Below, piece after piece: positions 1,517-14,663 of a DNA stretch of 23,462 bases. A program made the position numbers and the translations under genes. The DNA comes from Candidatus Vogelbacteria bacterium (lineage in GTDB: Bacteria > Patescibacteria > Paceibacteria > UBA9973 > UBA12445): the NCBI GenBank assembly GCA_016201425.1, contig JACQCW010000001.1, positions 1-23,462 on the forward strand, given 5' to 3'. Within the stretch, counting starts at the first letter, position 1, and each line of letters begins with the position of its first letter. Under the pieces are notes generated by a model. It saw nothing but the letters and a program-made list of their open reading frames with translations. It did not search any database and was not told the DNA's origin.

Positions 1517-1774
1517 ATGTTACACAATCATAAGGTTGGATTAGCGTTTGGAGGGATTATATCACTTTTTCATGCAGTGTGGACGATATTAGTTGCATCA
1601 GGTACGGCGCAGCCAATTTTAGATTTTATTTTTTACTTGCACATGGTGGGTAATCCATATGTTATAGCGCCGTTTAATCCAATGCTAGCTATTTTCTTAA
1701 TTATTTTTACTGGTGTTGTAGGTTACATCGTCGGCTACATTTTTTCCGCAATCTATAACTTGGCACATAAATAG
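1517..1774 (+). CDS. Small two-helix membrane protein, DUF5676-like
   Basis: The 85-aa product has two hydrophobic helices, about residues 8-30 and 55-80, joined by a loop with the pattern AQPILDFIFYLHMVGNPY. This pattern (HxVW at the first helix, AQPxxDFIFxLHM, NPY, then GYxxGYxFxxxxN at the end) is what I associate with the DUF5676 family of membrane proteins, frequent in Patescibacteria. Function is unknown. It ends 2 bases before the next gene, so the two are likely cotranscribed. No Shine-Dalgarno is present. Confidence 0.6.
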   Translation: MLHNHKVGLAFGGIISLFHAVWTILVASGTAQPILDFIFYLHMVGNPYVIAPFNPMLAIFLIIFTGVVGYIVGYIFSAIYNLAHK

Positions 1775-1776
1775 AA

Positions 1777-3468
1777 ATGAAAGAAAAAAATTTTGATTTT
1801 ATTCTTGATAAGGCTGGGACAAAGAACGAGCAACAAGTATCTGCAATAAGTCCTAAGGAGATTTTGGATGAGCACACAGAAGAGTTGATCGCGGAAAACG
1901 ATCGATTGGATGCACGAATGACGGAGTTGAAGAAAAAATTCGGTATATATGGTTTGGTTGTGCAAAAGGAGTTTGTTGATGACGAAACATTTGGAATGTT
2001 TGTTGAAAAGTGGTTGAGGAGAGTTCGAAAAGAGACTGATTACCTAAAGCCGCTGGATGCACTGGGTATCAGGATTTTTTGTGAAGATCTTGAAAATCAG
2101 CCGTCGTTTCCCGGCATAGATATTCAGTTTGATGTAAAGAGTATAAGGCAAGAGAATATAAAGAAATTAGCTGGTATTGGGGGACTTGCGAAGTGGCGCG
2201 AAAAAAAGTTAGAGGTTGTGATATCTAAACCTTTACTTCGTGAGCAGGTATATAACTTTATGGTGGATGGGAAACTGGATTTTGCATCAGCTGCAGTAAT
2301 TCATGAGTTGATTCATCACGAACATTTTAATCGTAACAAAGATGTAACTTTTGTAGCCACGGAGGTTCAGGCTCACTTTTCTGGTCTTTTTTATTATGGT
2401 AACGATTTTTCGCCAACTGATATAGTTGACGTTTTAACGAAAGAGGAAGCTTCATATAATTTTGACAAAGTACTCGTTAAAAAAGTCATTCGAGCCGTTG
2501 TCGTTTTGTATGGTTTGGGTGTTGATTACAACACCGTGGCGTCCTTAATTGCTGATTCAACTTGGGACAACAAAACGAATAGATATGACCCGATCGAATC
2601 TGTGGCGGAAGAGAGGTTAAAAGAGCTTGGTTTGGATGCACTTGATGAGAAGGGTTTAGATTATCTTTATAGGTTACACGCGGAGAATCAACAACTCAAA
2701 GCGAGGATAGCCTTATATGAATTAATAGATGAAGTGTTTACCTTAGATACTCTTAAGGGCGCTAAGATTGAGACTGCTGGGCAAAAGATAATGATGCCAA
2801 TTCAGTTTGATGAAGATGGTAAGCCAATGAAGGATTTCCCACCAATATATCAGTCGTGTATTACTCCGGTAAGCGAAGAGTTTCCTTATGATGGCGATAA
2901 GATAAAAACCGGTGTTATATTTGGTCCTGTTCCACATGGAAAAGAGGTTACTTTTAGGATAGGTAGATTTCAAAACAATGAAGGAGAAGAACCCGGTGCT
3001 ACTTGGGCGCGTAACGATTTTGAAGTGAACTATCTTTTGGACACGATAAAGTCTCAGTCTTCTAAAATAAATTTTGAAGAAAAGCGGGTATTTTTCTTCA
3101 ATTATGCAAGACTAGCTGATTTGGGCCGGATTGACGAGAATTTTGTTAAAGTCTTTAACGTATTAGTTACACAGGAAGAAGACAGGGCTGCTTTATTTAG
3201 AACGTACATACAAGCGATGGAAGAGAGTTATCGGCTAGCGCTGGAGTCGATCGAGGAAAGTAGAGCAAATCGACCCGGTTGGTCGCTCGATAAGAATAAT
3301 GAAAAGAGAATAGAGGTATATGGCGCCTGGGTTAGTGCCTATGAAAATCTAAAGGAGGTTTTTGGGCCCACTTTTAAAAAGGCTGCTGGAGAGTCGGACG
3401 ATGTTGTTGAGAGATTAAAATATCTTCTGAGTTTCAAGGATAAAATAGATACTAGCCTTTATAATTAA
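1777..3468 (+). CDS. Hypothetical 563-aa protein with zinc-peptidase-like HELIH motif
   Basis: I do not recognise a named family for the whole protein. Residues 29-55 look like a short coiled coil (EELIAENDRLDARMTELKKK). AAVIHELIHHEHF places a HExxH motif at 176-180 (His176, Glu177, His180), and TEVQAHF supplies Glu196 as a possible third zinc ligand, the arrangement of gluzincin-like peptidases, although the 15-residue spacing is shorter than in thermolysin. No signal peptide or membrane segment is seen, so it is probably cytoplasmic. The C-terminal half is charged, mixed helix and strand. Its stop codon overlaps the relic comF tail at 3465-3491, and it converges with the 1213-aa gene, the two stop codons being 19 bases apart. 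Peptidase activity is an inference from the motif only. Confidence 0.75.
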   Translation: MKEKNFDFILDKAGTKNEQQVSAISPKEILDEHTEELIAENDRLDARMTELKKKFGIYGLVVQKEFVDDETFGMFVEKWLRRVRKETDYLKPLDALGIRIFCEDLENQPSFPGIDIQFDVKSIRQENIKKLAGIGGLAKWREKKLEVVISKPLLREQVYNFMVDGKLDFASAAVIHELIHHEHFNRNKDVTFVATEVQAHFSGLFYYGNDFSPTDIVDVLTKEEASYNFDKVLVKKVIRAVVVLYGLGVDYNTVASLIADSTWDNKTNRYDPIESVAEERLKELGLDALDEKGLDYLYRLHAENQQLKARIALYELIDEVFTLDTLKGAKIETAGQKIMMPIQFDEDGKPMKDFPPIYQSCITPVSEEFPYDGDKIKTGVIFGPVPHGKEVTFRIGRFQNNEGEEPGATWARNDFEVNYLLDTIKSQSSKINFEEKRVFFFNYARLADLGRIDENFVKVFNVLVTQEEDRAALFRTYIQAMEESYRLALESIEESRANRPGWSLDKNNEKRIEVYGAWVSAYENLKEVFGPTFKKAAGESDDVVERLKYLLSFKDKIDTSLYN

Positions 3469-3491
3469 TGCGCCAGTGCGAGCTTGATTAT
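3465..3491 (-). repeat. Relic of the comF 3' end (left direct repeat)
   Basis: These 27 bases match 7192-7218 at 24 positions in the same orientation. Read on the minus strand in the comF frame they encode IIKLALAH and a stop, identical to the ComF C-terminus. The three differences (3474, 3477, 3489) fall at third codon positions and are all synonymous. The copy is detached from comF by the 1213-aa gene. It holds the stop codons of both converging genes. Confidence 0.85.
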
Positions 3492-6400
3492 ATTAGATAC
3501 ACATCGTTGACAATATAATAGCCATTGACTGTTGAGTCGTCTTCGGATCCTAATTCGATTGGTGTAAGTTTATCGCTAAGTCCTGCCAAATGATTATACA
3601 GAATGGGTCTATTCGATGCTGCGCCACCGCAATGATCATCGATAACGATTGCCAATTTGCGCCCTTGTTTGTCTGCAATAGAGCGTACATAGGCTGTGAA
3701 TTTCTCCATATAATCTTCTACAGAAAGCTCGTTTATAACGTTCTCTAGTGGATTAAGACCGCGGATTACCAAGAGGGGCGTTCCGTCACTTGCCTCTGTT
3801 TCTAGGAGAAAGCAGGCGCCAGCTAGACGCTCAAATTTGGTGCTTTTATTTTGCACCATAATAAGTGAGGTAAAGTTAGGAAAACTTTCTGCCATAGTTG
3901 CACCATAATCATCCTCTTCTTCATATTCGTCGTATGTGCGTTCTGGGTTATATGCCCAACAGGCATCAGCGATATGCCCGGATAACTCCATGAGCATGCC
4001 TCTTGTTGGTATAAAATCTAGTGTAGTCCTGCCGCGTAACCCCTGATTTTGGGCTCGCGCAAGCTCCTCTTGTAGTGCCAATACGCTGTTTATTTTTGTA
4101 AACTTTTTCCAGGCCTCTTTGTCGGGAAAGTATTTTTTCCAAGTTTCCTCGTTTGTTGTGTGCGCCACGAAGTTTATAAGCCAGCTGTTGTTTTCAAAAG
4201 AAATTCCTTCACGAACTAATTTCTTCGCCTCTTCCAGTTTTGTTGGATTTTCGAATAGTGATATGGCAAATACGATCTGTCGCAAAACCTCATACAATTC
4301 AGGGAAGTCAGCTAGTTTCGTAAAGTTTGTTTGTATGGCCGACAAATTACGAGTATCAGTATTTTTTAGGTCCCGAATTTGTCCCGATATATTTTCTCGG
4401 GCTTTCTCATGTAGATTTTCTGAATTCTGTAATTTTTCTTCTAGTCCAGATATGACGCTTTTTCGTAGCTCCTCAACTTTTGTATATAATCTATTAAATA
4501 CTGGGCCTTGTTTATCCGAGAAGAGTTTGGTGGCCTCCAAAAGGGATTGTTTTAGTATATTAAAGCGATGGATGAATTGCTCTGAGTAAACAAATTCGCT
4601 TCGTGCCTCGGCATCTACTTTATTGATAAGTAATGTACCGCTGGGCGTATATGTCTCGTCTAGTTTCAGAAGAGGGTTCTCCTTGTTGTGATCGTAGTGA
4701 TTGTATCGGCGAATCAATGATTCGAAAGAGCTTTCACTGTGCCCTCCCCACTCACTTTCTTCATAGCGGACGTATTTCTTAAAGAATTGTCGAAAAATTT
4801 GATCTTTATCTAACCAATTAACGACCAATGCTTCTTTAAATAAATCCTTTTTGAATCTGTCGAATGCTAATCTCAGGTCATTAATACCACGTTCGCCGGA
4901 TTGTTTAATACCCAAATTTTTCATACGATCTACATCGATCGTGCCATTTAGTATGGATCGAAGACATTTGTATTCAACACCCGTAAAATATGCACCAAAC
5001 ATTTCAATTCCGACTGAAAATGCGCGGTCTGGATTTTCCCTGCGCTCATTTATTATTCCAGCAAGGTAAAATTTATTAGAACTCTCCAACAGCTTTTTAA
5101 ACAAAGCTTCGATATCAAGGCCAGGGAATCGCTCTATGTTGTCTACTAACGATTCGAAATCTTTAGCCCTAATTAGAGCTTCTGCAATTTCATTGGGAAT
5201 TTGATTGAATGCAGTAAGAACTGGTTTTATGTAATCCAATTCTCCGCCTAGAGCTTTTTCTAAACAGAATGTCTTGGCCTTCTCGTACGTAAGAGGAAAA
5301 ATTTCCCCAAAATTATTATTGGATATTATTAATCTCACTTTCTCTGCTTTAAATTTGATCTGTTCCAGAGTCGAACGTTTGTCAATTGCATGTAACATTT
5401 CGGGAGAAAGTTTAAATGCGGAAAGAAGATCAACCACTTTTTCTATATTACCCTTGCACAGGAGGTTACTAAGTAAGTCGCTCATTTTTTCTTCCATGCC
5501 CTCAGGGAGTTGTTCTAGTTTCTGTCCAATCTTTATCATAGCCACAATCTTTTTATGTTGTTCTTTTTCTCCTAACATATCATTCAGCGCGCTCGAATAT
5601 GCTGTACGTATAAGTTTGTCTGGATCGCCGGCCGCAGGAGTGATATGTTTAATAACTTCCTCGTTTACTGTTTGAGCAACCTTAGCACCGACCCCTGGTC
5701 CAATTTCTTTGTCTGGAAAAAGATCTCTTTCTACTTTTGTTCGGAAGACTGCTTGCACGACATCTGGATCATCTATACTTTTTTCTTTGGCTAGTATATT
5801 GAGAATATGCCCATTAAGTACTCCATTTTTTGCAGAAGTGCAAAGGTATTTCGCAAATTCTTTTCTATGGTGTTCATCCCAACGACTTATGACATCTAAT
5901 ATCTTGTTGGGTATTGCATGAAAGTAATTTGTACTGCACTCGTTCGCTAATATCCACATGTTTTTATACTGGAACTCGATCGGCAATGCCGCAACGGCGT
6001 TAATAGATATTGTATCGAACCCGTCTCTTCCTGTTTTTGCCAGTGCTGGTGCCACTGCCGCAAAATTCTCAGGGTGAGCCACCAGGGCTTCATAGCCTTC
6101 TTTTACATCATAACCTCGAGCTAGTTGATATGAATCACGAGTTGCGTCTCTGACGTTGCACCACTTCACAAAACGATCAACCATCTTTTTGGTGAGTGGT
6201 TTTGTACGATATTTCATTAGTGTAAACCATTTTGCCGTTTCTTCTTCGTTTTTGTCTGACGGCATCAACTTTTTTATTTCCTCTTCGTCCCAGTTTGCGG
6301 CAGCAAGCATTATATGGTTTCCATATTTGTCATCACGATCAGATACTTGAAGCATCTTTTTGACCAGCGGCATTCCCTCTGATTGCGGCCAAGTTCTAAT

Positions 6401-7129
6401 CAGTTGTGCTACTTCTTCCAGATCAAAACGATTGAGGTCTTTTTTTTGTTTATCAATAATCTGATTGAGAATTTCAGACTGCTTATCTTGATCCCAGTGT
6501 TTTACAACAGTAACAATATACCTGGTTCTATAGTTTTTTGAAAATAACCATTTTACGGCACTTAGGCCATCTTTGTACGTCCAATTTTGTGCAGCCTTAC
6601 AGTATTCCTCTAGTTCAACTAGATTCTTGTTTAAAAGATTTTTTGCTTGTTGTGGGTCTATTGCGCCCAACACCCTTTCTTTAAAAGGTAAAAAACATTC
6701 TTTTGCACCACTGTACCTATCCCAGTCGTCGCCTCCCTCATTATTTAATTTTTCTAAAATCTCCGGTGTACAGAGGTCGGATGATAGCTTAGCACTAAGT
6801 GTCTTACTTGATTGAACAAGACGTTCTCTGCCTCCTGTTTGATTCTTGTACCATTTAGGGTCTGAGTCTGCGTGAGGAATCCTGGACCCATCTTTTGCTA
6901 CTTTTAAAAGCAGTCTGACGGCGTCTTGAGAGTTAGGATCAACCGTTTCAAGTAATTGGCATGCCTCGTTATAAAATTCCGCAATTTCATCCGCATCCCA
7001 GCGCTCTCCCTTAGGATAAGCCCTGCTGAAAAACTCCGGCTTAGGCTTTGGTTCCGGTGGCTTAATTTCTTTAGTCTGTCTGTGATTATTTCGCCCGTTA
7101 TCTGCGTTTTCAAATTTATTTTTGCTCAT
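3488..7129 (-). CDS. Giant 1213-aa protein of unknown function, alpha-helical with a conserved-looking C-terminal domain
   Basis: No named family is recognised. Residues 1-35 are polar and Pro/Lys/Glu-rich (EIKPPEPKPKPEFF) and probably disordered. About 36-1020 appear almost entirely helical, with repeat-like helix pairs and a coiled-coil-prone stretch near 880-950. Residues 1032-1213 change character to mixed alpha/beta, with blocks MELSGHIADACWA, RLAGACFLLET, LLVIRGLNPLENVINELS and IVIDDHCGGAASNRP. The strand-strand-helix-strand order resembles a GNAT-type acyltransferase, which is a weak inference. No signal peptide or membrane segment is seen. An extended -10 (TGCTAAAAT) ends 6 bases before the ATG, so the mRNA is probably leaderless. 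The gene is flanked by the comF-tail repeat and is likely an insertion. Confidence 0.8.
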   Translation of the reverse strand: MSKNKFENADNGRNNHRQTKEIKPPEPKPKPEFFSRAYPKGERWDADEIAEFYNEACQLLETVDPNSQDAVRLLLKVAKDGSRIPHADSDPKWYKNQTGGRERLVQSSKTLSAKLSSDLCTPEILEKLNNEGGDDWDRYSGAKECFLPFKERVLGAIDPQQAKNLLNKNLVELEEYCKAAQNWTYKDGLSAVKWLFSKNYRTRYIVTVVKHWDQDKQSEILNQIIDKQKKDLNRFDLEEVAQLIRTWPQSEGMPLVKKMLQVSDRDDKYGNHIMLAAANWDEEEIKKLMPSDKNEEETAKWFTLMKYRTKPLTKKMVDRFVKWCNVRDATRDSYQLARGYDVKEGYEALVAHPENFAAVAPALAKTGRDGFDTISINAVAALPIEFQYKNMWILANECSTNYFHAIPNKILDVISRWDEHHRKEFAKYLCTSAKNGVLNGHILNILAKEKSIDDPDVVQAVFRTKVERDLFPDKEIGPGVGAKVAQTVNEEVIKHITPAAGDPDKLIRTAYSSALNDMLGEKEQHKKIVAMIKIGQKLEQLPEGMEEKMSDLLSNLLCKGNIEKVVDLLSAFKLSPEMLHAIDKRSTLEQIKFKAEKVRLIISNNNFGEIFPLTYEKAKTFCLEKALGGELDYIKPVLTAFNQIPNEIAEALIRAKDFESLVDNIERFPGLDIEALFKKLLESSNKFYLAGIINERRENPDRAFSVGIEMFGAYFTGVEYKCLRSILNGTIDVDRMKNLGIKQSGERGINDLRLAFDRFKKDLFKEALVVNWLDKDQIFRQFFKKYVRYEESEWGGHSESSFESLIRRYNHYDHNKENPLLKLDETYTPSGTLLINKVDAEARSEFVYSEQFIHRFNILKQSLLEATKLFSDKQGPVFNRLYTKVEELRKSVISGLEEKLQNSENLHEKARENISGQIRDLKNTDTRNLSAIQTNFTKLADFPELYEVLRQIVFAISLFENPTKLEEAKKLVREGISFENNSWLINFVAHTTNEETWKKYFPDKEAWKKFTKINSVLALQEELARAQNQGLRGRTTLDFIPTRGMLMELSGHIADACWAYNPERTYDEYEEEDDYGATMAESFPNFTSLIMVQNKSTKFERLAGACFLLETEASDGTPLLVIRGLNPLENVINELSVEDYMEKFTAYVRSIADKQGRKLAIVIDDHCGGAASNRPILYNHLAGLSDKLTPIELGSEDDSTVNGYYIVNDVYLI

Positions 7130-7135
7130 GGAAGA

Positions 7136-7144
7136 ATTTTAGCA
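7136..7144 (-). promoter_or_regulatory. Extended -10 promoter of the 1213-aa gene, predicted leaderless
   Basis: On the minus strand TGC (7144-7142) and TAAAAT (7141-7136) form an extended -10. Six bases separate it from the ATG at 7129, so the start site would be the A of the ATG. No Shine-Dalgarno is present and no clear -35 is seen. Confidence 0.5.
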
Positions 7145-7191
7145 TGGCACTCGGATTTTAAAAATCAACAGTGCATACATTATATTTTATT

Positions 7192-7218
7192 TTAATGCGC
7201 TAGCGCGAGCTTGATGAT
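7192..7218 (-). repeat. comF 3' end forming the right direct repeat
   Basis: This is the in-gene copy of the repeat also found at 3465-3491. It encodes ComF residues 216-223 (IIKLALAH) and the TAA stop. Together the copies bracket a segment of about 3.7 kb that holds only the 1213-aa gene and its promoter. Confidence 0.85.
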
Positions 7219-7863
7219 CTTGCGGGGTTTGGCACGCTTGAGAACGCGGGAGCATTCTTCTATGGTGGCGCCGGTAGTAGTGACATCGTCTAAAAGAATT
7301 ATTATTCTATCTTTAATTTTTTCAGGATTATTTATTGTGAACGCGCCTTTTAGGTTATGTAGCCGGTCAGTTTTATTTCTTGTTTCTACTTGACTCTTGG
7401 TGTGTCTAGTTTTGATTAAAACAGAATTTTCTAGCTCAAATGAGTTACCCAGATCATAACCTAAGATTGCTTTGGCAATTACCTCTGCCTGATTAAATCC
7501 ACGCTCTTTTTGGCGTTCTTTGGAGAGAGGGACTGGGACGAGGAGTATCTTTTGCTCTCCATTCAGTAGAAGTTCATTCGTATCAGACAGCTCCTCAATA
7601 ATTCTGTCGTGCATGGCGCGCGCCAAAGGCTTGATTACGGCTGTTCCGCCTCTATATTTCAGGAGCCAAATGGCCTTGCGGATCACTGGGTCAGAATATG
7701 CAAAAATTGTCGTTATCCCATAGGGGCTCGATTCATGCGGAAGCATATCTAAACACTCTTTACAGATAGATTCGCCAAGTTTCTGGCAGGACAAACATCT
7801 TTGAGGCAGAATAATATCCAGAATTGAGTTTAAATATGTGGATAACCTATCTATTAAGTGCAT
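7192..7863 (-). CDS. comF: ComF family phosphoribosyltransferase-like competence protein
   Basis: The 223-aa product has the ComF layout: an N-terminal zinc-binding cysteine set (CLSC at 23-26 and CKEC at 34-37), KYRGG in the middle, RGFNQAE near residue 124, and the PRPP-binding loop IIILLDDVTTTGAT in the last third. ComF proteins are needed for transfer of incoming DNA across the inner membrane in competent bacteria and have been linked to primosomal helicase function. It is divergent from the pilus operon that starts at 7912, which fits a shared role in DNA uptake. Its last eight codons and stop are duplicated at 3465-3491. The start at 7863 gives the usual short lead before the cysteines. 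Confidence 0.92.
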   Translation of the reverse strand: MHLIDRLSTYLNSILDIILPQRCLSCQKLGESICKECLDMLPHESSPYGITTIFAYSDPVIRKAIWLLKYRGGTAVIKPLARAMHDRIIEELSDTNELLLNGEQKILLVPVPLSKERQKERGFNQAEVIAKAILGYDLGNSFELENSVLIKTRHTKSQVETRNKTDRLHNLKGAFTINNPEKIKDRIIILLDDVTTTGATIEECSRVLKRAKPRKIIKLALAH

Positions 7864-7889: not shown

Positions 7890-7911
7890 TTATAATCATC
7901 GGGTATTATGT

Positions 7912-9048
7912 ATGGCAAATATTTTCAGCAGTTTAATGGGTTCTTTGCAGTCAGGTCTTTTCAAAAAAAAGGATGAGAGCATTGTCGGTATCGATATAGG
8001 TTCTTCGTCAATTAAGGCTATTCAGATCAGGAAGGAGAAGGGTCAGGCGGTGCTCGAGACATATGGAGAGCTCGCCCTTGGGCCTTATAAAAATGTCGAG
8101 ATCGGAAGGTCTGCTGTTTTGCCGCCCGAAAAGATAGTTGAGGCTCTGTCGGATCTTTTCCGCGAGGCTAATATTACCACTAAAAGGGCGGCTATAGCTA
8201 TCCCTTTTAAATCCAGTTTGATCTCCTTGATTGAGCTACCGGCGCTTGAAAAGGCCAAGATAGATGAAATGATACCGATTGAAGCTCGAAAATATATTCC
8301 GGTACCTATGTCCGAGGTTATCCTGGACTGGTCGGTGATCCCAAATAGGGAAAAGGAGTTGGGTGATGAGCCCGGAACGTTTGAGGAGCCAGCATACTCA
8401 AAAAAGAAGGTTGAGACCACCGAGGTTTTGGTTGTGGCGATTCACAAGAATATTCTTGAAGATTACAAAGTTATAGTCGACAAGTTGGGATTGACTACTG
8501 GGCCATTTGAAATAGAAACTTTCAGTGCGATCAGATCAATTTTTTTGCACGATCTCTCCGCTACGGTGATCATCGACATCGGAAGCGGCGCAACGAGGGT
8601 GATTATTGTAGATTATGGAGTGACGAAAATGGCTCATACCATCAACAAGGGTTCTCAGGACATCACGATTGCACTGTCAAAATCTCTCGGAATGGACTTT
8701 TCCAAGGCCGAAGAGGTTAAAAGAAGTGTGGGAGCGGTTGGCAAGGTAGAAGGCGGCGATCTACTTGGCGTTATAAATCCGACCCTCGAGTTTATTTTAT
8801 TCGAAGCGTCACGAATCATTCTTGGTTATCAAAAAAAGTATTCCAGAGCTATTGGTAAAGTAATTCTGATTGGTGGTGGGTCTCTGCTTCGTGGGCTGCC
8901 CGAGATAGCGGCTAAGAACTTAGAGATTGATGTCAAATTAGGTGATCCATTTAAGAAGGTTGAGGCCCCGGTCTTCCTTGAGCCAGTTCTAAAAGAAGCT
9001 GGGCCGAGCTTCGCGGTTGCCATCGGTGTCGCGCTTCGAGAGTTATAA
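7912..9048 (+). CDS. pilM: Type IV pilus inner-membrane platform ATPase-like protein PilM
   Basis: The 378-aa product is an actin/FtsA-fold protein of the PilM family. It has the phosphate-1 motif IVGIDIGSSSIKAIQ near the start, the IPVPMSEVILDW segment, the second phosphate motif VIIDIGSGATRVIIVD in the middle, and the adenosine motif KVILIGGGSLLRGLPE near the C-terminus. PilM sits on the cytoplasmic face of the membrane, binds the PilN N-terminus and couples the PilNO complex to the ATPases. The reading frame is open from ATG 7858, but that codon lies upstream of the extended -10 at 7881-7889, so ATG 7912 (MANIFSSL) is chosen. It is the first gene of the pilus operon. Confidence 0.93.
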   Translation: MANIFSSLMGSLQSGLFKKKDESIVGIDIGSSSIKAIQIRKEKGQAVLETYGELALGPYKNVEIGRSAVLPPEKIVEALSDLFREANITTKRAAIAIPFKSSLISLIELPALEKAKIDEMIPIEARKYIPVPMSEVILDWSVIPNREKELGDEPGTFEEPAYSKKKVETTEVLVVAIHKNILEDYKVIVDKLGLTTGPFEIETFSAIRSIFLHDLSATVIIDIGSGATRVIIVDYGVTKMAHTINKGSQDITIALSKSLGMDFSKAEEVKRSVGAVGKVEGGDLLGVINPTLEFILFEASRIILGYQKKYSRAIGKVILIGGGSLLRGLPEIAAKNLEIDVKLGDPFKKVEAPVFLEPVLKEAGPSFAVAIGVALREL

Positions 9049-10762: not shown

Positions 10763-12361
10763 ATGATTTTTTCTAAGAACTTGGATATTCCTGTCAGAGC
10801 CCTTGGTGATAAGAGGATTCCTTTCGATGTTCTTAAGTATGTTCCGGAAGAATCGGCTGTTCATTATGGGTTTGTGCCGCTGGACACAAAAGATGGAGTT
10901 TTAGAACTTGGAATTGTGGATCCCGACAACATTGAGGCTAGGGACGCCATCGCGTTTATCGCCTCGCGTGTCGGCATGCCGTTTAAGATATTTTTGATTT
11001 CTCAGGGTGATTTCGACGCGGTCCTACAGAGCTACAAAGGTATTACTGGACAGGTTGATAAGGCTCTCACGCAAATAAATGTTGAAAAAAAGAAGGAGGC
11101 TGATTTAAAAGGAGGTGTGAAAGAAGATGTTTCGGACGAACTTTTAAAAGAGATTGCCGTAAAACCTGGTTCTGGTTTTGTGGAAGAGGCGCCCGTCACA
11201 AAAATTGTGGCGGTTATCATTCAAAATGCCGTTGAGGGACTTGCTTCTGATATCCATGTTGAGCCAACTGGCGATAAAGTCCGCGTCAGATTTCGTGTAG
11301 ACGGGGTTTTGTACACAAGCTTGTTTTTGCCGATTTCTGTTCACGAAGCTGTCGTTGCAAGAATTAAAATCTTAACAAGCATGAAGCTGGACGAAAAGAG
11401 GAAGCCTCAAGATGGTAGATTTTCCGCAAGGATTGAGGGGCGGCAAGTTGACTTTAGAGTTTCAACATTTCCAACCTATTTCGGAGAGAAGGTGGTGATA
11501 AGAATTTTGGATACTGAGAAGGGGTTGAAGAAGCTTGATCAGTTTGGATTTACTGAGAAAAATTTGGCATTAATTCGAGAAGCAATCACCCGACCATATG
11601 GATTGATTTTATTGACTGGGCCAACTGGTTCTGGTAAGACCACCACACTCTATTCTATGTTGAATGAGACAGACAAAGAAAAAAATAACGTTGTGAGCTT
11701 GGAAGATCCAATTGAATATAATATGTCAGGAGTGAGTCAATCGCAGGTCAGACCTGAGATTAAGTACACGTTTGCAAGCGGTCTCCGGTCTATTTTGAGA
11801 CAGGATCCAGATATAATAATGGTTGGCGAGATCCGAGATGCCGTGACAGCTCGATTGGCGATACAGGCTGCGCTAACGGGACATCTTGTTTTTTCTACAT
11901 TGCACACGAATAACGCTGTTGCGGCCATCCCGCGTCTCATTGATATGGGAATTGAGCCGTATCTTATAGCTCCGACCTTATCGCTTGTAATAGCTCAGAG
12001 GTTGGTTGGAGTTTTGTGCGAGGAGTCAAAGTCTCCAATCCCGGTTACCCAAGATATTAAAGATATGGCCGAGAAGCACTTCTCTGATCTGCCTGAATCG
12101 GTAAAAAAACAGTTGGTGATTCCCCAAAATGTTTACAACGCTGTGCCGTCGCCAACTTGCTCGACTGGTACGCGTGGCCGCACGGCGGTTATTGAGATAC
12201 TGGATGTGGATAAGGAGATTAGAAATACAATTCTAAGGAGCCCAACCGAGCAAGATATTCGCAAGGTTGCACGAGCAAATGGAATGATCACAATGAAAGA
12301 AGATGCTATGATTAAAGCGTTCAAAGGAATTATTCCAATGGAGGAGGTTCTTAAAATTTAA
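10763..12361 (+). CDS. pilB: Type IV pilus extension ATPase PilB/GspE
   Basis: The 532-aa product has the N-terminal GspE-like domain, then the secretion ATPase core with Walker A GPTGSGKT at 286-293, the Asp box, a Walker B region RQDPDIIMVGEIRD and the His box LVFSTLHTNNA. It powers pilin polymerisation. Classic PilB proteins carry a four-cysteine zinc site between the His box and the GRTAVIEIL segment. Here only LCEES and PTCST remain, with one cysteine each, so the zinc site appears lost. The start at 10763 is followed by a normal N-domain (VPEESAVHYGFVPL). It lies 13 bases after the PilP-position gene. Confidence 0.95.
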   Translation: MIFSKNLDIPVRALGDKRIPFDVLKYVPEESAVHYGFVPLDTKDGVLELGIVDPDNIEARDAIAFIASRVGMPFKIFLISQGDFDAVLQSYKGITGQVDKALTQINVEKKKEADLKGGVKEDVSDELLKEIAVKPGSGFVEEAPVTKIVAVIIQNAVEGLASDIHVEPTGDKVRVRFRVDGVLYTSLFLPISVHEAVVARIKILTSMKLDEKRKPQDGRFSARIEGRQVDFRVSTFPTYFGEKVVIRILDTEKGLKKLDQFGFTEKNLALIREAITRPYGLILLTGPTGSGKTTTLYSMLNETDKEKNNVVSLEDPIEYNMSGVSQSQVRPEIKYTFASGLRSILRQDPDIIMVGEIRDAVTARLAIQAALTGHLVFSTLHTNNAVAAIPRLIDMGIEPYLIAPTLSLVIAQRLVGVLCEESKSPIPVTQDIKDMAEKHFSDLPESVKKQLVIPQNVYNAVPSPTCSTGTRGRTAVIEILDVDKEIRNTILRSPTEQDIRKVARANGMITMKEDAMIKAFKGIIPMEEVLKI

Positions 12362-13457: not shown

Positions 13458-14663
13458 ATGCTTTTTAAATATAAAGCCACAACAAGAGAGGGTGAAGAGC
13501 GTAATGGAACAATTGACGCCTTTGGAGTTGATGCCGCAATTGGAGCGCTACAAAAGCGAGATTTAATTATCGTTTCTATCCAGCCTGCCGATGTGGTACC
13601 TTTTTATCGGCAGATCGTTAATTCTTTTCAGGGGGTAAGCAACAGAGACATCGTTATTCTCTCTCGTCAGTTGGCAACGTTATTCGAGGCCAAAGTTTCA
13701 GTGCTAGATACATTTAAACTTCTCTCTTCCGAAACTGAAAATGCCATTTTAAGAAAGAGTTTGAGTGAGATGACTGACGACATCCAGAGCGGTGTGCCGA
13801 TTTCCACTGCGATGAGTAAACATTCTTCCATATTCTCACCTTTTTTTGTGAGTTTGGTTCGTTCGGGTGAGGAATCGGGTAAATTATCCGAAGCCTTCAA
13901 CTATTTAGCAGATTATCTCGAGCGTCAATTCGCTATCGTTTCCAAGGCCAAAAGTGCCCTAATTTATCCAGCTTTCATCGTGGTCTCCTTTTTGGTTGTT
14001 ATGGTTTTGATGCTGGTTTTGGTTATTCCAAGATTAGGTGAAATTTTGACAGAAACTGGCCAACAGGTGCCTTTGTATACTCGATTTATTATAGGCTTAT
14101 CCGCTTTCTTCGTTAATTACGGGATATTTATTGTCGTCGCATTTATAATTGCAATAATTGTCTTCTGGCGATTTATTATTTCTGCGTCGGGTCAAAAAAT
14201 AATTGACGAGCTTAGATTGAAGACACCATATGTAGGAACTCTTTACAAAAGATTCTACTTGTCTCGTATTGCAGACAACATGGATACACTTATAACGAGC
14301 GGGGTATCGATGATTCGGTCCCTTGAAGTTACGGCTGATGTTGTAGGAAGTGAGGTGTACAAAAAGGTATTGATTGATGCTGTCACCGCGATAAAAGGAG
14401 GAAGCCCGCTCTCGGCGGCACTCGCTGAAAGTTCTATTGTTCCACAGATTATGGTGCAAATGACCAAAATTGGGGAAGAGACCGGAAACTTAGGATTTGT
14501 TTTGAAAACAATGTCGCGTTTTTATAAAAGAGAGGTCGATAATGCTGTCGACACCATGGTCGCATTGATCGAACCCCTAATGATCGTCTTCTTGGGTGTC
14601 GCCGTCGGCTTGTTGCTTGTGTCTGTGCTGGGTCCGATTTACAATATTACCGCGGGCATTTAG
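13458..14663 (+). CDS. pilC: Inner-membrane platform protein PilC/GspF
   Basis: The 401-aa product carries two GspF/T2SSF domains. The first has LSRQLATLFEAKVSVLDTF and SPFFVSLVRSGEESGKL; the second has YLSRIADNMDTLITSGVS and PQIMVQMTKIGEETGNL. Three membrane segments are seen, near residues 170-192, 218-240 and 375-397. PilC is the rotor-like membrane platform that PilB and PilT act upon. It closes the first pilus gene run; the pilins have their own promoter downstream. Confidence 0.95.
   Translation: MLFKYKATTREGEERNGTIDAFGVDAAIGALQKRDLIIVSIQPADVVPFYRQIVNSFQGVSNRDIVILSRQLATLFEAKVSVLDTFKLLSSETENAILRKSLSEMTDDIQSGVPISTAMSKHSSIFSPFFVSLVRSGEESGKLSEAFNYLADYLERQFAIVSKAKSALIYPAFIVVSFLVVMVLMLVLVIPRLGEILTETGQQVPLYTRFIIGLSAFFVNYGIFIVVAFIIAIIVFWRFIISASGQKIIDELRLKTPYVGTLYKRFYLSRIADNMDTLITSGVSMIRSLEVTADVVGSEVYKKVLIDAVTAIKGGSPLSAALAESSIVPQIMVQMTKIGEETGNLGFVLKTMSRFYKREVDNAVDTMVALIEPLMIVFLGVAVGLLLVSVLGPIYNITAGI

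Follow-up and report, generated by a model that had tools for sequence, protein, structure and literature searches.

A Second comF Tail Beyond a Single Inserted Gene in a Candidatus Vogelbacteria Genome, and Similar Displaced Tails in Related Genomes

Introduction

Integrative elements, and the integrase-less, att-flanked cis-mobilizable elements (CIMEs), that insert in the 3′ ends of genes give the target gene a new tail and push its former tail to the far side of the insert. Integron gene cassettes are single genes delimited by a repeated sequence. Here we describe a locus that resembles both in part. In a 23,462-nucleotide stretch of Candidatus Vogelbacteria DNA (assembly GCA_016201425.1, contig JACQCW010000001.1, positions 1 to 23,462; hereafter the window), a gene of 1213 amino acids lies between a comF-like gene and a second copy of the end of that gene. 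As in CIMEs and integrative elements, an old tail is displaced beyond the insert, but here the inserts hold one or two genes and no integrase was seen. As in integron cassettes, single genes are associated with a repeat, but here the repeat is the coding tail of comF, and neither an integrase nor an array was found.

A third precedent is the capture of foreign DNA by homology on one side. In the E. coli experiments cited here, single-crossover integration of partly homologous DNA duplicated 109–950 bp of the target locus in 14 sequenced clones (PMC3240628). Both this form and homology-facilitated illegitimate recombination (HFIR) share with our locus the one-sided homology and the trapping of foreign DNA at the border of a homologous block; the single-crossover form also shares the duplication of part of the target gene. 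The cases described below differ in being natural events with copies of 24–176 nt, in which the target keeps a working end.

Patescibacteria are ultra-small, and their compact genomes leave few places for additional genes. The recurrent, readable scar at comF shows how single genes join such a genome while both neighbors stay intact. It marks the insertion and where it ended, preserves the two comF alleles that met there, and allows gene captures to be counted from metagenomes. The connection that it suggests between competence and gene gain can be tested in bacteria for which transformation already serves as a laboratory tool.

Results

The comF tail is repeated across the 1213 amino acid gene. 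The window holds, in order, a pilus block starting with a pilM-like gene (7891–9048, plus strand), a divergent comF-like gene (7192–7863, minus strand; 223 amino acids), the 1213 amino acid gene on the same strand as comF (3488–7129), and a second comF end. The comF-like product has a Pfam Pribosyltran domain above cut-off, and its best NCBIfam match is TIGR00201 (ComF; E-value 1.9e-28, 99.7 bits). Since the curated cut-off of 233.55 is not reached, the name rests on this best match together with the pilM context; comF and pilM are adjacent in 20 of 20 loci of the same order.

The last 27 nt of comF (7192–7218), which are joined to the insert and which we call the near tail, recur in direct orientation at 3465–3491 (the far tail) with 24 of 27 bases identical; the window contains no third such site. 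No such repeat was found in 100 dinucleotide shuffles, and an estimate from composition alone gives about 7e-8 as the chance of 24 matching bases in 27 within the 7.1 kb past comF. Read on the minus strand, both copies encode IIKLALAH followed by a stop, and all three differences are synonymous in the comF frame (ATC/ATA, GCG/GCA, CTA/CTG). Over 30 bases the match is 26/30, the next codon being non-synonymous (AAG/AAT). Repeat search and reading frames thus confirm the duplicated comF end claimed by the original prediction, with its 24 identical bases and three synonymous differences. Three synonymous changes out of three are weak evidence taken alone, and the claim of coding constraint becomes firm only with the other cases given below, because 14 of 16 codon differences are synonymous overall.

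The stop codon of the 1213 amino acid open reading frame (ORF) falls within the far tail, and the stop of the far tail in turn overlaps that of a convergent 563 amino acid ORF (1777–3468, plus strand), leaving a gap of −4; among 126 other loci, six show the same spacing between comF and the ORF that follows it. The far tail would be the resident's original comF end and the 563 amino acid gene the original neighbor of comF, while the near tail presumably came in with the cargo from a donor. The arrangement supports an insertion at the 3′ end of comF that brought in both the 1213 amino acid gene and a second comF tail.

Displaced tails occur at other comF loci. We collected 161 comF loci of the same order and class, in addition to the window; they were chosen by match strength and downstream room, not randomly. 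In each we looked for a second occurrence, in the same direction, of the final 27 nt of that locus's comF, with a threshold of at least 23/27. After loci with less than 5 kb downstream were dropped (11/62, 7/40 and 13/60), 131 remained (51 + 33 + 47), and five of these have a displaced comF tail: the window, L114 (genome G153), L128 (G151), L196 (G804) and L241 (G760). At the remaining loci the best same-direction copy reaches at most 20/27. A peptide-level scan of the first 84 loci agrees, with scores of 58, 57 and 31 for three cases and 19 for the next; two control matches from the peptide scan, in L113 and L168, were set aside as paralogs. The search for displaced tails beside unrelated cargo that had been proposed for the window thus yields four further comF loci in other genomes. 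Our literature searches turned up no account of insertions at comF, which is not proof of absence.

As a control we used 823 other genes of at least 150 amino acids from the same loci (590 + 233). Three reach 23/27 (in L125, L193 and L229), and on inspection one of them, a recG-like gene in L125, has a true displaced tail; the L193 match is a long coding repeat and the L229 match a 16-nt hairpin. With all three control matches counted, comF is enriched (5/131 versus 3/823; Fisher test, p = 0.0018), and it remains so (p = 0.008) without the window, which had been picked for this feature; in both tests the controls come from the same loci, phylogeny is uncorrected and five cases are few. Copies of gene heads were found for 2 of 642 genes, both pilin-like paralogs, and for 0 of 215. 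True displaced tails (6/953 genes) exceed true head copies (0/857; p = 0.03), while with all eight tail and both head matches counted as they stand the excess is not significant (p = 0.11). A further control match in L171 (22/27, under the final threshold) was rejected as a tandem duplication of a whole unit: the tail of a fusA-like gene, a terminator and the next gene, at 36–884 and again 1136 nt further. The names recG, ftsH, trmD, fusA and KH-domain gene used here were assigned by eye and come from no family search.

The inserts, counted as ORFs of at least 80 amino acids, are unrelated among the cases, and both cargo orientations occur. The window insert is the single 1213 amino acid gene with a GNAT-like end; that of L128 is one 1290 amino acid gene on the opposite strand, with a Pfam GNAT domain at 1154–1235; L114 has a histidine kinase and a 114 amino acid ORF; L196 and L241 each have one ORF (184 and 183 amino acids, respectively) with no Pfam match above cut-off. 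At the recG-like gene of L125 (G081), tail copies at 3361–3387 and 3947–3973 delimit a 586-bp insert with a HicA/HicB pair, and a tRNA-Ile gene follows directly. At loci where recG and ftsH converge, between 126 nt and about 7 kb separate the recG stop from the aligned portion of ftsH, which places recG, like comF, next to variable DNA. Pfam found no recombinase among the insert proteins scanned (the 114 amino acid ORF of L114 was left out, and one L196 ORF was scanned shortened), and an integrase regular expression, whose sensitivity is unchecked, had zero matches over 102 comF loci (1.38 Mb).

Taken as best-scoring matches, the displaced copies are 24 (window), 60 (L128), 176 (L114), 61 (L196) and 57 nt (L241) long. 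Across the tail pairs, 14 of 16 codon differences are synonymous, as against about 27% expected under neutral or random change (binomial P = 6e-7); excluding the window the count is 12 of 14, and both non-silent differences are in L128. Therefore both copies were ends of working comF genes while they diverged, and the coding constraint proposed from the window holds across the cases. The tails of L196 are identical, as are the recG tails, which suggests that those events may be recent.

Relatives carry a single tail. The nearest relative found, locus L001 of a Vogelbacteria metagenome-assembled genome (G001), was the one relative identified by scanning genome contigs with the pilM protein. Across comF from the insert, the pilM-like gene that opens the conserved pilus block is 84% identical there, and the 85 amino acid gene that adjoins the 563 amino acid gene in the window (1517–1774, plus strand) is present at 59% identity. 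L001 has one comF tail and no 1213 amino acid gene (its genome is missing from the match list for that protein). Beyond comF it carries two homologs of the 563 amino acid gene (38–39% identical), separated from comF by two genes of unknown kind. The empty-site comparison asked for by the original prediction is thus answered in part: the single tail without the gene is there, but two other genes precede the 563 amino acid homologs. Together with the missing cargo, these show that the region beyond comF differs between relatives and that L001 is not an exact empty site. A second comparison comes from G133 (L151), where comF is followed after 15 bp by orthologs of the 144 and 998 amino acid genes (66% identical over part and 49%, respectively) that lie beyond the insert in G153 (L114); again there is a single tail, while the G153 side holds extra DNA, taken up below. 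The outcomes that had been named as telling against an insertion (relatives lacking the gene yet carrying two tails, the gene and comF adjacent in all relatives with no displaced tail, or an unrelated left copy) were not found, and one close relative without the gene carries a single tail.

comF lies at a genomic border. In every locus that extends far enough upstream (22 of 22), the genes on that side are conserved. On the downstream side, a neighbor shared with any other locus occurs in 58 of 137 loci, and the median number of partners is 0. The conserved pilus block ends with comF, and the DNA past it is variable. With conserved sequence upstream and variable sequence downstream, the locus has homology at one border, as capture by HFIR or single crossover requires. 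A convergent gene lies within 15 nt of the far tail in three of five cases, compared with 21 of 126 other comF loci (p = 0.04). When a convergent neighbor is only a few bases away, a joint inside the comF tail would be almost the sole option that spares both genes.

Discussion

We favor, at about an even chance, the reading that the 1213 amino acid gene was captured beside comF by one-sided homologous recombination with DNA of a relative, probably through natural transformation. A fragment with a related comF end and the gene beyond it would enter the cell, probably by transformation, and one of its sides would recombine within comF by homology. The opposite side would be closed by end-joining, the resident end lying inside the last few dozen bases of comF; alternatively, the fragment may circularize and integrate by a single crossover. 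By either route comF would gain a new tail and the cargo, and the resident tail would be left behind. Natural competence, dependent on comEC, is described for Saccharibacteria (PMC10633639). It is tempting to suggest that comF serves as a target again and again because a conserved block ends with it and the DNA beyond is variable, leaving incoming fragments with homology on one side only. Of the two ideas in the original prediction, homologous import fits the variable displaced length better than a fixed site does; a single-gene module acting in trans stays a conjecture.

Several points weigh against this reading. The homology in the window (24–30 nt) is short for RecA. HFIR, as described in the source cited above, generally deletes about as much resident DNA as it inserts (PMC3240628). 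General recombination explains the enrichment at comF only through the border argument, and no donor with an undisturbed junction between comF and cargo was found. In G153 about 1 kb of additional DNA separates the far tail from the genes shared with G133, and a single event may not suffice there. Finally, three of the five boundaries fall at 57–61 nt and may be a shared boundary of the kind expected from a fixed site, which leaves room for a recombinase acting in trans.

That last point also belongs to the main rival reading, site-specific integration, which we regard as possible though not probable. The insert would be a small integrative element or its remnant, CIME-like, with the comF tail in its attachment site and the recombinase elsewhere or lost. 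The geometry is that of integration in a gene 3′ end with a tail carried by the element: direct repeats flank the insert, one of them at the end of the target gene. The enrichment at comF and the duplication of tails and not heads also fit. However, the insert proteins scanned include no recombinase, and displaced copies of about 24 to 176 nt argue against a fixed attachment core; a constant core is not seen among lengths of 24, 57, 60, 61 and 176 nt, unless the site is lineage-specific. By eye, the near tails of the five cases have no obvious common DNA motif beyond the encoded residues. No comF tail was found on IMG/VR contigs with two patterns that cover some lineages only, and none of the five cases has a third tail copy, as an array would. 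A particular form, in which one-gene Patescibacteria cassettes of cargo and spare comF tail dock at the comF end through a recombinase in trans, seems to us rather unlikely. If it were true, a DNA-uptake gene would itself be the landing place for newly imported genes.

An old tandem duplication, in which a second comF decayed from its 5′ side to a 3′ remnant while other genes came between, could account for silent divergence and for remnants of different length with no recombinase involved. Two comF matches are present in 7 of the 168 comF-bearing genomes of the order, including G153, whose second match may be the displaced piece. We consider such a duplication improbable: the last codons and the stop are intact in the remnants, whose 5′ edges are abrupt, where a decaying copy should collect non-synonymous changes and insertions or deletions, and L001 and G133 have a single comF tail. 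That the match is chance or a functional sequence such as a shared terminator is hardly credible, since chance is excluded by the shuffles and the estimate above and further genomes show the same frame-wise synonymous pattern, even though a duplicated terminator-like hairpin surrounds a relative of the cargo gene in G090.

The cargo and neighboring genes

The C-terminal part of the 1213 amino acid protein (about 514 amino acids) belongs to a patchy Patescibacteria family; relatives of the N-terminal part were not detected. Its C-terminal end has a GNAT-like fold attached to a long helical region. The likeness to GNAT acetyltransferases is one of fold: the protein has no Pfam or NCBIfam GNAT match, and the long helical region sets it apart. 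A phage or virus origin found no support, the protein, its C-terminal part and the two comF-tail patterns being absent from IMG/VR matches. A defense system was likewise dropped as a candidate, as PADLOC gave no match for the 1213 or the 563 amino acid protein. The latter has no curated family above cut-off; its family shows an HExxH-like motif by eye, and the two members in L001 are in tandem (4388–7722).

A flanking repeat is not general to the 1213 amino acid family. Among 13 other family-member genes compared, the 24/27 of G090 stands alone, and the other 12 reach at most 21/27. In G090 (L073), copies of a terminator-like perfect hairpin (5886–5924 and 7956–7994) bracket a broken family member whose neighbors are a KH-domain gene and trmD. 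The genome has no further copy of this hairpin, and the loop is inverted; as a duplicated terminator-like hairpin with inverted loop, this repeat was not counted as a displaced tail. Among the loci of eight relatives no exact empty site was seen: four have another small gene between the KH-domain gene and trmD, and four have no KH-domain gene nearby. Similar hairpins (24/27 and 25/27) flank stretches with REP-associated (Y1) transposase-like genes, identified by eye, in L037 (2579–3301) and L052 (1188–7984).

Just beyond comF in L043 (G165), a 91-bp direct repeat (90/91 identical; 12155–12245 and 13553–13643) brackets two small genes (172 and 181 amino acids). In L001, phage-like genes by eye (terminase- and ParB/methylase-like; 757–2539) lie not far beyond the variable region. 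In the window, a DinD-like protein (448–1269; NCBIfam PRK11525 above cut-off) is encoded beside two divergent tRNA-Ser genes.

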